Shown: positions 485 to 57,466 of the stretch, piece after piece
How positions within the stretch are numbered: the stretch's first letter is position 1
Layout: each line of letters begins with the position of its first letter
Origin: Spiroplasma endosymbiont of Agriotes lineatus
GTDB taxonomy: Bacteria > Bacillota_I > Bacilli_A > Mycoplasmatales > Nriv7
Length of the DNA stretch: 64,000 bases
NCBI RefSeq assembly: GCF_964019485.1
Contig: NZ_OZ026448.1
Span: 186,001-250,000 of the forward strand
Direction of reading: 5' to 3'
Translations under genes and position numbers: made by a program
The notes under the pieces: model-generated
What the model saw: only the letters and a program-made list of their open reading frames with translations
Database searches by the model: none
Told to the model about the DNA's origin: nothing

Positions 485-973
485 TTAATTATTTTTAAAT
501 TCAGTTTTAAATTCTAATATTTTTCATTTGGCATATCTTTCATTTTTGTCTCATTCTCGTACTTTCATTTTTATGTTTTTTAATTTTTTATTTTGATAGG
601 ATAAAAAATCTTTATTTTCTCAATATCTTGGTTCACTGTTTTTTTCTCAATTTAAATCATATTCTAATGATTTTAATATTGGTAATGTAATCTTGTCATT
701 TTTGTCAACATAAAATTCTCAATCATTAAGTTTCATTCGTGGAGGCAAGTTTTTGGGCATAAATTTATTTTCTACATTAAATTTTATTTCTCATTTTTGA
801 TTTCACTTGCTGTTGTCATCTTTTGATGATTTAAGTGTTAATTTTGATTTTTTTAAGTTTAATTCGTATGATTCATTCTCAATTGGCAATGTTGTTTTAT
901 TTTCTTTTTTAGAACACCCAACTATTGGCAATGTTGTCAGCCCCCAAAGAGCTATTATATTTAAAATTTTCAT
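485..973 (-). CDS. Plectrovirus-associated lipoprotein carrying the ORF1 N-terminal domain
   Basis: A 162-residue lipoprotein. It starts after a clear AAAGGAG ribosome-binding site and has a hydrophobic signal ending in the lipobox LPIVGC, so it should be anchored to the membrane by an acylated Cys at about residue 20. About 12 residues after the Cys, the remaining 123 residues or so are identical to residues of the upstream ORF1 protein (DNA 509-877 equals 2709-3077 with no mismatch I can see), followed by a short unique tail. It reads through several TGA codons as Trp and is intact. It is the last gene of the prophage, 49 bp after ORF1 and separated from it by an AT dinucleotide tract. A similar lipoprotein gene, broken, follows ORF1 in the prophage fragment at 54.4 kb. 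Function unknown; see findings. Confidence 0.8.
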
Positions 974-1002
974 AAATTTAACTCCTTTATTTTGTTTTTT
1001 CA

Positions 1003-1022
1003 ATATATATATATATATATAA
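1003..1022. repeat. AT dinucleotide microsatellite between ORF1 and lipoprotein
   Basis: About ten AT units sit directly downstream of the ORF1 stop and 30 bp before the lipoprotein start. The third prophage copy has a shorter tract at the same place (54805-54819). Length variation could change spacing in the leader of the lipoprotein gene. Confidence 0.75.
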
Positions 1023-3197
1023 TTATACAAAAATTCTTAATATCATTAGAAAGATGGCAAAACCAATTAAAAATTGAAAGGTATAGTAAAAAGCTGGCAC
1101 GGTTTTAAAGATCGGAAAAATGGCGGTTGAAAAGTTAACTGTTGCTTTCGCAATAATTGCTAATGGCCGTAAAATCGTAATGATTTGTGACGCTGTCAGA
1201 ATTCAGTTAATCATTTTGATACTAGCATTCTGAATGGTACAACCAATATCATTAAAGGTTGGTATTCATCGTCCAGAATATTTGCAATTTGCTGGCGGAA
1301 TTAAGTCATCTCATTCTGAGTTGGTTGAACCATCAGGTATAAAGGCTGTGGAATTAAGAACATTAAAGTCATAAATTTTAAAATTGTAATTAGAGATACC
1401 ACCCTTGTGATAAAGTGGAAAAGTTAAGGTAAAAATATTAATACCATAGCGAATATCAATATCGGTATTAAGGTAATTAATACTGTTAGCTGGTTTACTG
1501 GTCGGCAAGGTAATCAGTTTATTATCATAGGATTTAAGGACATTAAAATCAATTTGATAAATGCTATTGTTGTTTTTAATAGCATTATAATTTTTTTGGT
1601 GCGTTTTTTTATCAAAAGTAAAAAAATAACTTCTTAGTAATAATTCTGAGTTTCCTATAATATTTACTAAGTATTTTTTGGGATAAAAAGTAATTAAGGA
1701 GCGATAAAAGAAACCGATTTGAATAAAATAGTTCTTGTTATAATTATCTACGCCTTTAAAATCAATTTCAGTATGAGTGTTTTCATCCATATCAAAAGTC
1801 GCATAAAATAAACTGGCAAAAAAATTGCCAAGAATTTCGTAGATTTCATCAAAGACATTTTTGTAATCGCTGTTGTTAATACCAGGGATGTTGTTTTTAA
1901 AGTATAGGTAAATGTCATTTTTTAATTCAGGGTCGTATCTCAAAAAACTAAATCTAACATTGAGGTAATTTAAGGTACCAAAAAGATACTTAATTAGGTA
2001 ATAATCGTTAGCCTTTTTGGTGTCGTATTTTCAGATTTCGGCCTCACCATGTAGCAGTTGTAAATAATTATTTCCAGCAATTAGGGTTTTGTTAAATGCC
2101 TTAATTTTAAGGACATTATCGTTATTATCATCTTGTTTTGGAATGGTCATTTTAATTGTATTTGTTCCTTGCAATTGTGTGCTCGTTTCAATTGCGGTAA
2201 ATTTAACGGTAAATGTTCTGTCAGCGACATTGTCTGTTGTTAAATCAAAAGTAGCCCTTTCATCTAAGTAATTGTTGTCATTATCTTTAATTTCTGTATT
2301 ATAGTCGATACCTTCAATTGCATTATTTACGCCAGTAAGATTATTAATTGTTTCATTAAGTCTCTTTTTAATTTTTTTTATAACTTCAATTTTGGTTGCA
2401 TTTGTCGGGTCAATTATTTCTGAGTTTGGTAAAATAGTAGAATTTTTGTGATAAAAATAGCTTTCATTTTTAAAACCATGATTTTTAATCGTAAATTCTT
2501 TATAGTAACCTTTTTCTAAGGTGTCAATGAAATTAAATACCGGTGTTCAATAGAGATAAGAGTAATTAAATTTATCAAAATCACCACGATGAATCATTAA
2601 ATAATCAAGATTATCAATAACATCACTATAGTTATGATTACCATCAAATTTGGTGGTTTTTTCTGGTAAATCAATATCAGTCGAGGGTTTAGTTTCTGAT
2701 TGTGCGTCAAATTCTAATATTTTTCATTTGGCATATCTTTCATTTTTGTCTCATTCTCGTACTTTCATTTTTATGTTTTTTAATTTTTTATTTTGATAGG
2801 ATAAAAAATCTTTATTTTCTCAATATCTTGGTTCACTGTTTTTTTCTCAATTTAAATCATATTCTAATGATTTTAATATTGGTAATGTAATCTTGTCATT
2901 TTTGTCAACATAAAATTCTCAATCATTAAGTTTCATTCGTGGAGGCAAGTTTTTGGGCATAAATTTATTTTCTACATTAAATTTTATTTCTCATTTTTGA
3001 TTTCACTTGCTGTTGTCATCTTTTGATGATTTAAGTGTTAATTTTGATTTTTTTAAGTTTAATTCGTATGATTCATTATTTTGCCTTTTGCTTCTAATTA
3101 GTGATTGTGTTTTTGTTTTATCATTATTAATGTTTCAGGGAATGGTAAAAATGTTATTGAAACTAATAATTATCATGGTAAATATTTTCATAAACAT
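1023..3197 (-). CDS. Plectrovirus ORF1-like surface/adsorption-type protein
   Basis: A 724-residue protein encoded in one frame if TGA is Trp. Its length and position fit the large ORF1 of SpV1/SVTS2-type Spiroplasma plectroviruses, a minor virion protein thought to act in adsorption. Start: ATG after AAAAGGAGTG. The N-terminus is hydrophobic (signal-like). Residues ~40-163 are duplicated in the downstream lipoprotein. Residues ~250-365 look like a spiralin-type beta domain that is missing from the copy at 54.8-56.25 kb. The C-terminal 80 residues hold one or two membrane segments ending in LMILRIFV. This is the only full-length ORF1 in the window. Family assignment rests on size, order and topology, not on a database search. 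Confidence 0.8.
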
Positions 3198-4419: not shown

Positions 4420-5405
4420 TTATTCCTTTTCTTTCATTTTTCTTAAAAATTTGCTAAATTTATCCATTTTTAAGTATTCTAAGTCTTCTAAATCAATTGC
4501 TGTGTCAGTATAGTATTTGTCTTCATAGTCAGGATTAACTTTTAAATTTAAGTAATCTCTTAAAAATGCTAGGTAAAAAGAATTGTAAGTGTTAAGTGTT
4601 GGTAAAGGAATTTTTAGTTTAAAAAAATAAATATCAAGTGCAGGAATATCACGATATTTAACGCGACGACCTTTTTTACTATTTTTAGCATCAATTAAGG
4701 TGTTTCGTCAGCGTTCATATTCTTCAATACTAGTAAAGGTACCATAGATGACTTTTAAATAGGGACGAAAAATATTAACGGGTTTTTTACGAATGCCCAC
4801 AATCTCACATTATTAGCAATATCGCGAACTTTAACTCAAATATGTTTATCTCTTTGACCGCTAGCGAGAACAATATGACCAAAATGCCGTGCCAGAGCGA
4901 AATATTCTTGAATACCGGTTTCTTCGTTTTTGGTATTATTTTTTTCTCAATCAGTTCCTTCTAAAAATAAGTTGGTTTCATCTCACAAAAGTAAGGTTTT
5001 GTCTGGCAATACTGGATAATCAAAGTCTAACAAACCCATATGGCCTAAACTTAATTTTTGGGTTTCTAGTAATGGAAATGTTGATGCGATATTATATTTT
5101 TTCTTTTTTAGTAATTTTGATGCGTATACTAGAAAAGCGGTTTTTCCAGTTCCTAATGAACCAATCACAATATTTAATGGTGAGTTTTTTAAGAAGTTAA
5201 TAACTTTGTTAATTTGTGTTAAATTACCGATTTTAAAAAGAAAAATTAAAATACAACCTGCTAAAAATAAATAGCTTACAATGTTTTTAAAATAACCGTT
5301 GTAAATATATCAAATTGCTCCTCAATGTCATAAAATTAAAAATGAGGTGCGATTTAATTCAATAAAATGGTTATTTTTTTCTATTATTCATTTGCAAAAT
5401 TTCAT
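4420..5405 (-). pseudogene. Plectrovirus Zot-like assembly ATPase, frameshifted
   Basis: The protein starts with ATG at 5405, has an N-terminal membrane region (residues ~22-70) and a P-loop GSLGTGKT with a Walker B-like LLLWDE about 65 residues later. This is the layout of Zot/gpI-type ATPases that drive extrusion of filamentous phages. Reading is open until about 4805, where one base appears to be missing: the frame continues ANNVRLW to an early TAA, whereas the next frame gives the expected continuation VGIRKKPVNIFRPYLKV through to the TAA at 4420. Two lesion-free halves argue for a recent mutation or a sequencing error. If real, this prophage could not extrude virions on its own. Confidence 0.8.
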
Positions 5406-54273: not shown

Positions 54274-54374
54274 TCAAAATAGAAAAAATGAAAAAGTTGT
54301 TTAAAAATATTATCGTCATAGAATACTATCTTAAAAAGGTGGTATTTTAACAGTTTTTTAATTTAGTTATTAAG

Positions 54375-54775
54375 GATTTTCAATTTCAATTTCAAAATTA
54401 TTTGTACATATTAAACTATAATCTGTTGTATTATCATCTTATTTGTAGTCATTTAAAATTTGTGCCTTGTGCTTTAATTGTTATTTTTTTATTAATTACT
54501 CATTCTCTCTTTCCTGCTTTGGTTTCATATGTAGTTATTAATTGTCTTATTTCATCTTGTTTATTTTTATTACTAGAGAATTCTGATTGTATAAATTTGA
54601 AAGTAAAATCGTTTAATTTTTTAAATTCTGGTAATTTTTCATTTAGATTGATATTATCTTCTTTCTTTATTACTATCTTTATTTTTTTGTTTTACTGGTT
54701 CATTTATTTTTTTAGAACAGCCGATTATTGGTAGTGTTATTAACCCTAAAACAGCGGTTATATTTAAAAATTTCA
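54375..54775 (-). pseudogene. Plectrovirus lipoprotein (downstream of ORF1), third copy, broken
   Basis: Start after AAAGGAGT; signal and lipobox LPIIGCSKK are like the gene at 485-973. A frameshift at ~54661 stops it after 37 residues; in the other frame it continues DNINLNEKLPEFKKLNDFTF ... KITIKAQG, and after a further lesion (ATAAGATGAT versus ACAAGATGAT) TTDYSLICTNNFEIEI. The last ~20 residues match ORF1 of the same fragment, not the lipoprotein of the first prophage. Confidence 0.75.
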
Positions 54776-54820
54776 TAAAATTAACTCCTTTATTTTATTT
54801 TTTCAATATATATATATATA

Positions 54821-56254
54821 CATTATACAAAAATTCTTAATATCATTAGAAAAATGGCAAAAACGATTAAAAATTGAAAGGTATAGTAAAAGGCGGGTAC
54901 TGTTTTAAAAATTGGGAAAATTGCGGTTGAAAAGTTAACTGTCGCTTTGGCAATAATTGCTAATGTTCGTAAAATTGTAATGATTTGCGAAGCCGTTAGC
55001 ATTCAATTAATCATTTTGATACAAGCATTTTGAATGGCACAGCCAATGTCATTAAAAGTAGGGATTCATCGTCCAGAATATTTACAATTTGCTGGCGGGA
55101 TTATGTCATCTCATTCCGAGCTGGTTGAACCATCAGGTATAAACGCTGTGGAGTTAAGAACATTAAAGTCATAAATTTTAAAATTATAATTAGAGGTATT
55201 TGTTTTATGATACAAAGAAAAAGTTAAGGTAAAAATATTAATGCCATAGCGAATATCAATGTCCGTATTGAAGTAATTAATGCTGTTAGCAGTCTTGCTG
55301 GTTGGCAAGGTAATCAGTTTATTGTCGTAAGATTTAAGAACATTAAATTCAATTTGATAGATACTGTTATTATTTTTAATAGCATTAAAATTTTCTTGGT
55401 GCGTTTTTTATCAAAAGTAAAAAAATAACTTCTTAGTAATAATTCTAAGTCTCCTATAATATTTACTAAGTATTTTTTGGGATAAAAAGTAATTAACGAA
55501 CGATAAAAGAAACCAATTTGAATAAAATAGTTCTTGTTATAATTAACTACGCCTTTAAAATCAATTTCGGTATGAGTTTTTTCGTCCATATCAAAAGTCG
55601 CATAAAATAAACTGGAAAAGAAATTGCCAAGAATTTCATAGATTTCGTCAAAAACATTTTTGTACTAGCTGTTGTTATACTAGGAATGTTGTTTTTAAAA
55701 TAAAGGTAAATGTCATTTTTTAATTCAGGATCGTATCTCAAAAAACTAAATTTAACATTAAGATAATTTAAGGCACCAAAAAGATACTTAATTAAGTAAT
55801 AATCGTTAGCATTTGTAGTGTCATATTTTCAGATTTCACTTTCATCGTGTAATAATTGTAAATAGTTATTGCCCGCAATTAAGGTTTTATTAAAAGCTTT
55901 AATTTTCAAAATATTTGTTTTAATTTCATCTTTACTACTAGAAGTTTTGTGATAAAAATAGCTTTCGTTTTTAAAACCATGATTTTTAATGGTAAATTCT
56001 TTTTAATACCCTTTTTCTAAAGTATTAATGAAATTAAATACTGCTGTTCAATAAAGATAAGAGTAATTAAATTTATCAAAATCACCACGATGAATCATTA
56101 AATAATCAAGGTTATCAATAACATCGCTGTATTTGTGATTACCGTCAAAGTTAATAGTTGTTTCTGGTAAGTCAATATCAGTGCTATCTTTTTTAATTTC
56201 AATTTCAAAATCATTTGTACATATTAAACTATAATCTGTTGTATTATCATCTTG
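54821..56254 (-). pseudogene. Plectrovirus ORF1, third copy, 5'-truncated by IS-A
   Basis: Homologous to ORF1 at 1023-3197 from its TTDYSLICTND region to the C-terminal membrane segments (LMILRIFV). The N-terminus is cut by IS-A copy 5. Frameshifts at ~55405, ~55670 and ~55995. Relative to the first copy it lacks about 110 codons (2110-2445 there): YFYHKTSSSKDE is joined almost directly to ILKIKAFNKTLIAGNN. Confidence 0.85.
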
Positions 56255-57466
56255 TGGATAGACTACAATAAGTTGGACCATAATTATATAGACTTCGAAA
56301 TTATTAATAAAGAAGGAATATAAAAATGGGAAATAAAACCTCATACTCTGAAGAATTTAAAAAATAAATTGTCATGCTATACAAAAATGGCAAAAGTGTT
56401 ATTAATTTAGGGAAAGAATATAATTTACCAAAACCAACTATTTATAGTTGAGTTAAAAATTATAATAATTCTGGTTCATTTAAAGCAAAAGACAATCGCA
56501 AACTAGAAGAAAATGAAATAATAACTTTACGAAAAGAACTTAAAGACTTAAAAATGGAAAATGACATTTTAAAGCAATTCGCACTGATAATGGCCAAAAA
56601 ATAACAATAATTAATAGCAATAAGAAAAAATATTCGATAAGAAAAATGTGTAAATTATTAAATATTTCAAAATCCAATTACTATTATCAAATTAATAAAT
56701 ACACAAGGAAAATAGTGAATAATTATAATCAAGAAATTATCAGTGCATTTAACGCAAGCCACCAAGTCTATGGAGCCCGAAAAATCAAAGTAGTATTAGC
56801 TCATAAAAGTATTAACCTATCTAGACATAAAATTAGAAATATTATAAAAAACAATAATTTGATATCAAAGTACACAAAAACAAGACTTAAATGCAAAAAT
56901 ATTCAAGTAAATAATGATCCAGTAAATAACATTGTAAACCGAGACTTTAATAATAGAAAAATAAATGAAACCATCGTTAGTGACTTGACTTATATAAAAG
57001 TGGGTTTTAAATGATTTTATGTGTGTCTCCTAATTGATTTGTATAATCGCGAGATTGTTGGTTATAGTTCCGGACCAAATAAAAATACGGAGTTGGTTTA
57101 TCAAGCTATTATGCGAATTACTAGACCATTATCAAAAATTGAAATATTTCATACCGACCGAGGTAATGAGTTTAAAAATAATATAATTGATCAATTATTA
57201 TCTACATTTAAAATTCAAAGATCATTGAGTGCGAAGGGTTGTCCATATGATAATGCAGTTGCTGAAGCAACTTATAAAGTTTTTAAAACAGAATTTATTA
57301 ATGGTAGAAAATTCAATGATCTTGCACAATTAGAACTTGAATTATTTGATTACATTAATTGATACAATAATCTTAGAATACATGGCAGTTTAAATTATTT
57401 ATCTCCAGTTACTTTTAGAAAACAAATGTCTATATAAAAATTGTCCTAAAAAGGGTTGCCAATCCA
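56255..57466 (+). mobile_element. IS3-family element IS-A, copy 5, orfA broken
   Basis: Full length with both ends. orfA (from 56326) has a TAA in place of CAA at codon 14 (56365-56367). orfB is open and has the complete triad, so it could still be made from its internal start. Flanks TTG and ATG do not match, and the two sides belong to different genes (phage ORF1 and an acid phosphatase), so a rearrangement has occurred here. Confidence 0.88.

Follow-up and report, generated by a model that had tools for sequence, protein, structure and literature searches.

Introduction

SpV1-type phages fill and reshape the genomes of Spiroplasma, and no function is known for most of their genes, including exclusion factors. 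A damaged prophage in the Spiroplasma endosymbiont of Agriotes lineatus raises a question about one such gene: why should the end of a small lipoprotein gene be repeated in the neighbouring ORF1 of the same phage? The locus lies at 54.4-56.25 kb of the 64,000-nt stretch analysed here (positions 186,001 to 250,000 of contig NZ_OZ026448.1; hereafter the window). A preliminary description had proposed that the two genes share a domain that differs between phages and is matched in cis, the pattern expected of a coupled specificity pair or of recurrent conversion between them. Here we examine this proposal across related phages and prophages, and consider what a second copy of the domain may do.

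Results

Phage setting

The window comes from a Spiroplasma genome of 1.24 Mb in a single contig. This genome must be translated in code 4, and the window is crowded with plectrovirus prophages and their remnants. Its left end holds a reference prophage, all on the minus strand, with small membrane ORFs, ORF1 and then the lipoprotein gene, and with an assembly ATPase of SpV1 type (Table 1). The ATPase is related to SpV1 ORF2 (PHROG 11343 at 1e-30; tblastn matches in R8A2B, C74, SkV1, SVTS2 and SVGII3) and is all that ties the window's lineage (lineage A) to SpV1: ORF1 (P0001) had no match among phage records by DNA or protein (tblastn) or in IMG/VR, and neither ORF1 nor the lipoprotein gave a significant family in Pfam or PHROGs. 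The layout is Plectroviridae-like, with ORF1 following the small membrane ORFs and carrying, as read by eye, a signal peptide and a C-terminal hydrophobic segment. From this synteny and from ICTV naming, in which the SVTS2 homologue g1 is the adhesion protein CoaA (PMC8295915), we infer that ORF1 is the adhesion protein.

Several features of the surroundings are recorded here in their own right. The ATPase of the reference prophage is split into two overlapping frames (window 4423-4800 and 4758-5405), so that this copy may be broken. Adjoining the window's left edge, beyond the lipoprotein gene, a 120-nt tandem repeat (L086:16106-17024) encodes a repeated YDPATGQQ motif, beta-propeller-like by eye, and SVGII3 has a propeller-like repeat gene after ORF1 (L159:6666-7634). 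A partial tandem duplication at G000:C1:299064-304585 has left two near-identical ORF1 copies 3.6 kb apart, with no lipoprotein gene found between them.

Table 1. Positions of the reference prophage and of the damaged locus in the window
Feature	Position	Strand	Basis
Lipoprotein P0002, reference prophage; 162 aa, intact, lipobox LPIVGC	485..973	-	code 4 translation
Variable domain, lipoprotein copy, reference prophage	509..877	-	369 nt at 100% to 2709-3077
Spacer between ORF1 and lipoprotein, reference prophage; (TA)n run of variable length and AGGAG ribosome site	974..1022	-	by-eye comparison, 34 loci
ORF1 P0001, reference prophage, intact; signal peptide, variable N domain, conserved body, C-terminal hydrophobic segment	1023..3197	-	translation; body alignment
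Variable domain, ORF1 copy, reference prophage	2709..3077	-	369 nt at 100% to 509-877
Lipoprotein gene of the fragment; lipobox leader MKFLNITAVLGLITLPIIGC and variable domain, frameshifted	54370..54776	-	three-frame translation; intact allele in L261-L265
Shared domain part, lipoprotein copy TTDYSLICTNNFEIEI	54377..54440	-	direct repeat, 62/64 nt
ORF1 (inferred adhesion protein) of the fragment, truncated and frameshifted	54823..56253	-	ORF pieces match ORF1 body
Shared domain part, ORF1 copy TTDYSLICTNDFEIEI, cut by insertion sequence	56190..56253	-	direct repeat, 62/64 nt
Insertion sequence interrupting ORF1 (outer end unmapped)	56254..57437	+	transposase ORFs 56374-56604, 56646-57437; Pfam rve, rve_2, HTH_21, HTH_Tnp_1

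The damaged locus and its intact allele

The repeat noticed in the fragment, put at about one mismatch in 57, is real: the two copies are direct repeats that differ at two positions over 64 nt and, in code 4, read alike except for N or D at one residue (TTDYSLICTN[N/D]FEIEI). Neither resembles the pair of the reference prophage, which has KWKILEF at this position and whose own two domains are identical throughout, so that the shared domain does differ between phages while agreeing in cis. Since the lipoprotein is frameshifted and ORF1 is cut by an insertion sequence, the fragment tests only these 64 nt and could not alone carry the claim of cis matching. In the counts given below, its own cis match (C240) rests on this 64-nt stub and was let in by a special rule.

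Within the window's own genome we could not find the missing allele; across the genus, the search located it in one sister species (G004) and nowhere else. Five prophages there (L261-L265) carry it with both ORF1 and the lipoprotein open, and with cis domains that are 94.4-94.7% identical over 374-393 nt, the full domain length. The N-terminus that the fragment's ORF1 has lost can thus be read from these relatives, and it matches the lipoprotein. In all five, the domain ends in TTDYSLICTNDFEIEI in ORF1 and in TTDYSLICTNNFEIEI in the lipoprotein, the same N/D difference as in the window, and this difference therefore belongs to the gene and is probably older than the species split.

Cis matching in the window's lineage

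Both domains could be compared at 17 loci of the window's genome, 18 of the Spiroplasma symbiont of Nebria riversi and 41 of three further genomes of the genus (G002-G004), with domain types set by DNA clustering (about 20 types in this lineage). Types matched in cis at 14/17, 16/18 and 38/41 loci, respectively, where 2.6, 2.4 and 4.4 matches were expected, or at 68 of the 76 loci of the five species pooled. When identical type pairs were collapsed, 13/18 still matched in the first two genomes (1.2 expected) and 13/16 in the other three (1.0 expected). Chance matching of alleles is ruled out by permutation, with duplicates collapsed as well. Amino-acid identity across the lineage has a median of 91% within pairs vs 15% between pairs.

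Where both genes are intact, the match is complete (6/6 loci in the first two genomes, 36/36 in G002-G004), and no mismatched locus of the first two genomes has both genes intact. Two of the three mismatches in the last three genomes share a stretch of 111-113 nt in cis and have short lipoprotein frames; these loci thus look truncated.

SpV1-type phages and a third lineage

In the S. citri and S. kunkelii phages R8A2B, C74 and SkV1, a lipoprotein frame that has not been annotated runs antisense to ORF1 and lies just past the ORF1 3' end. Its mature part is a copy of an internal, variable ORF1 segment (in SkV1, 96% identical over 300 nt; in C74, whose lipoprotein is frameshifted, 94-98%). The gene is absent from all three RefSeq records and appears to have been overlooked: the inverted repeat regions annotated in C74 (NC_003793) and SkV1 (NC_009987) are the shared domain of ORF1 and of the antisense lipoprotein, and only the repeats were annotated. 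Among SpV1-type phages and related prophages in four other genomes, 28 of 32 loci matched (1.4 expected), or 21 of 25 after collapsing. With such an excess over chance in both lineages, the proposed coupled specificity pair is supported.

The case that would have refuted it, an intact relative with unrelated domains, does not occur among the both-intact loci of the window's lineage but does occur here: the viable isolate R8A2B and the prophage L229 have intact, mismatched pairs. Matching is therefore a strong rule and not a requirement. As the ORF1 type of R8A2B is matched at 98% by the lipoprotein at L214, R8A2B looks like a recombinant. No lipoprotein copy of the domain was seen in SVTS2 or SVGII3.

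A third lineage, of distant ORF1 relatives in the window's genome, was examined at 9 loci. Seven of them have direct repeats, 170-320 nt long and separated by about 1.9 kb, and a lipobox leader stands ahead of the downstream copy where this is readable. Since these loci were picked for having repeats, they establish recurrence and not a rate. The domain-sharing arrangement thus recurs in three phage lineages and in two gene orientations, direct and inverted. As a separate observation, the third-lineage domain at L083 is 35% identical to the type carried by two of the lineage A prophages that lack an ORF1 body (near 594k and 1112k; see below), a sign that domains have been exchanged between lineages or share an origin.

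The lipoprotein as a gene

Lipoboxes (LPIVGC, LPIIGC, SLIAC, TFAC) are present in many loci, as read by eye without a lipobox predictor. Both lineages conserve the leader with its lipobox, the ribosome site and the region upstream, the inverted lineage included, in which the lipoprotein needs its own promoter. A (TA)n run of variable length separates the ORF1 stop from the lipoprotein ribosome site in lineage A (in the window, also at 54777-54822); its length might switch lipoprotein expression. The window's genome also encodes a 743-aa secreted protein (L105:5919-8147; G000:C1:758918-761149) that carries the phage variable domain behind a different leader and has a weak Pfam spiralin-domain match (7e-5, just under the cut-off). 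Judged by its sequence, the phage domain seems to have moved here into a host-like surface protein.

Variability and predicted fold of the domain

The ORF1 proteins of R8A2B, C74 and SkV1 are 15-25% identical in the segment core and mostly 75-100% elsewhere; for the window's lineage, comparisons between types give mostly 5-30% in the N domain and about 75-100% in the body, where a separate indel also depresses some blocks. Such localized hypervariability is as expected for a putative specificity domain. A predicted model of one domain type is confident (pLDDT 90) and finds only weak OB-like matches (best Z 5.6, most at Z 5 or less); it had no Foldseek match under 0.001, and PDB searches by sequence and by fold gave nothing convincing. 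The type 0 model (pLDDT 72) was left out of the fold search, and a profile comparison of two domain groups, on thin alignments, found no homology. A confidently modelled, weakly OB-like domain is compatible with binding and is no proof of it.

Concerted evolution and recombination between the copies

For types present in two species, we counted sites at which one phage's two copies agree with each other and differ from both copies of the other phage, against sites shared by gene. In the clearest comparisons, cis-shared sites outnumber gene-shared ones by 23-24 to 1 in one domain type, by 11 to 0 in a second and by 5-10 to 0. Substitutions between species are thus shared in cis, and the two copies evolve in concert, by conversion or by joint replacement, which supports the recurrent conversion first proposed. 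Within one species the pattern is mixed, with some sites of types 2, 4 and 6 shared by gene and not in cis. These sites, together with the N/D difference conserved between species, rule out complete homogenisation.

Recombination between the repeats can also be destructive. Eight prophages (G000:C1 near 535k, 594k, 654k, 722k, 1063k, 1102k, 1112k and 1147k) have lost the ORF1 body and are reduced to ORF1 leader, domain and, where recognisable, lipoprotein tail; D255 is the reciprocal product. The domain frames of these solo prophages are open in 7/8, a proportion too little different from that of other copies to claim selection.

Discussion

We lean slightly towards the view that the lipoprotein occupies the receptor of its own phage and excludes phages of the same type, that is, superinfection exclusion, a proposal made without expression, binding or infection data. 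The lipoprotein would be a membrane-anchored, phage-encoded copy of the receptor-binding domain of ORF1/CoaA; on the surface of the wall-less host cell it would occupy the receptor that the domain recognises, so that the phage's own extruded progeny could not re-adsorb and other phages of the same adsorption type would be blocked. Different domain types would bind different receptors, or different forms of a receptor. A lipoprotein would then be useful only if matched to its own phage's ORF1, and selection and gene conversion would keep the copies alike while types swap between phages. Receptor occupancy would call for just such a protein, with the variable domain anchored at the surface and tracking the adhesin allele of the same phage.

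Three steps of this reading are nonetheless inferences: the domain is taken to bind a receptor, resident cells to display the lipoprotein, and the lipoprotein to keep out matched phages. The sequence evidence for immunity of the pIII type amounts to a shared domain and an export leader; surface display has not been observed. In favour of exclusion, integrated SVTS2 DNA has been associated with resistance of S. citri to SVTS2 (Sha 1995, as reported in PMC8140453), although SVTS2 itself showed no lipoprotein copy. Against exclusion stand the intact mismatched pairs of R8A2B and L229 and the absence of a copy from SVTS2 and SVGII3. One genome, moreover, holds several prophages of one domain type, which counts against exclusion unless these arose by multiplication within the cell. 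Further points against it are that the adhesion role of ORF1 rests on synteny and ICTV naming, that the ATPase alone ties lineage A to SpV1, and that the matches from the fold search were weak.

Cis matching and concerted evolution would fit any homotypic function, and export signals occur on both ORF1 and the lipoprotein. The domain could make contact with another copy of itself or with a shared partner, within the virion or during assembly, and the lipoprotein could hold or release ORF1 at the membrane during extrusion; matching would then serve this homotypic contact and not exclusion. We regard such a role as unlikely, if the most serious of the alternatives: R8A2B is viable with a mismatched pair, SVTS2 and SVGII3 do without the copy, and no part of ORF1 is less conserved than this domain, which would be unusual for an assembly contact.

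It is harder still to believe that the pair is a neutral by-product, a duplicated segment homogenised by recombination between nearby repeats and moved as one by linkage. The solo prophages and their reciprocal product show that the repeats recombine, and the mismatched loci resemble recombinants; however, the layout recurs in three lineages, direct or inverted, lipobox and ribosome sites are kept in the leaders, and both frames are open at 36 loci; pN/pS between cis copies is 0.59.

We give slightly less credence again to lysogenic conversion, in which the lipoprotein would be a surface adhesin serving the bacterium in its arthropod host with a borrowed phage domain. The spiralin-like secreted protein of the window's genome shows the domain in just such company, but an adhesin role gives no reason why lipoprotein and ORF1 alleles of one phage should correspond time after time. 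Least credible is a cassette store that feeds alternative domain sequences to ORF1 for host-range change, since, widely as types are shared and swapped between phages and perhaps across lineages, a donor should differ from the expressed copy, whereas the copies match (at least 80% amino-acid identity in 88% of cis pairs in lineage A and 81% in lineage B).

If receptor occupancy is true, each domain type is a superinfection group readable from sequence, the receptor-binding segment of ORF1 is narrowed to about 100-140 residues, and the lipoprotein can be used directly to search for the still unknown receptors of Spiroplasma. The broader claim, which we consider evenly poised, is of a dedicated receptor-interference gene: a lipid-anchored copy of a hypervariable domain, kept in register by conversion and selection, that defines such groups and arose or was rebuilt in at least three lineages.

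Receptor denial by resident viral genes has several precedents. Phage T5 encodes a lipoprotein, Llp, that blocks its receptor, and Cor of phi80 and N15 is a receptor-blocking phage protein (PMC11436027). The Spiroplasma lipoprotein resembles these as a small phage-encoded surface protein thought to deny a receptor. To our knowledge, Llp and Cor-type proteins are not copies of their own phage's adhesin domain, as the Spiroplasma lipoprotein is. Endogenous retroviral Env proteins (Fv4, suppressyn) interfere at the receptor with viruses of the same receptor class. Here too a resident viral gene would make the receptor-binding part and block entry of its class, and receptor occupancy, if true, would be a phage parallel to Env interference, in a prokaryotic host, with an ssDNA phage and through a dedicated second phage gene in place of a leftover envelope gene. 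The filamentous phage Ff, of the same virus order (Tubulavirales), offers a further likeness. Its resident pIII saturates TolA and confers superinfection immunity (PMC7070036, citing Boeke 1982 and Riechmann and Holliger 1997), and in both cases the resident cell would make an adsorption-protein domain that blocks the receptor. The Spiroplasma phages differ from Ff in using a separate gene, a lipid anchor and the variable domain only, which co-evolves with the adhesin.
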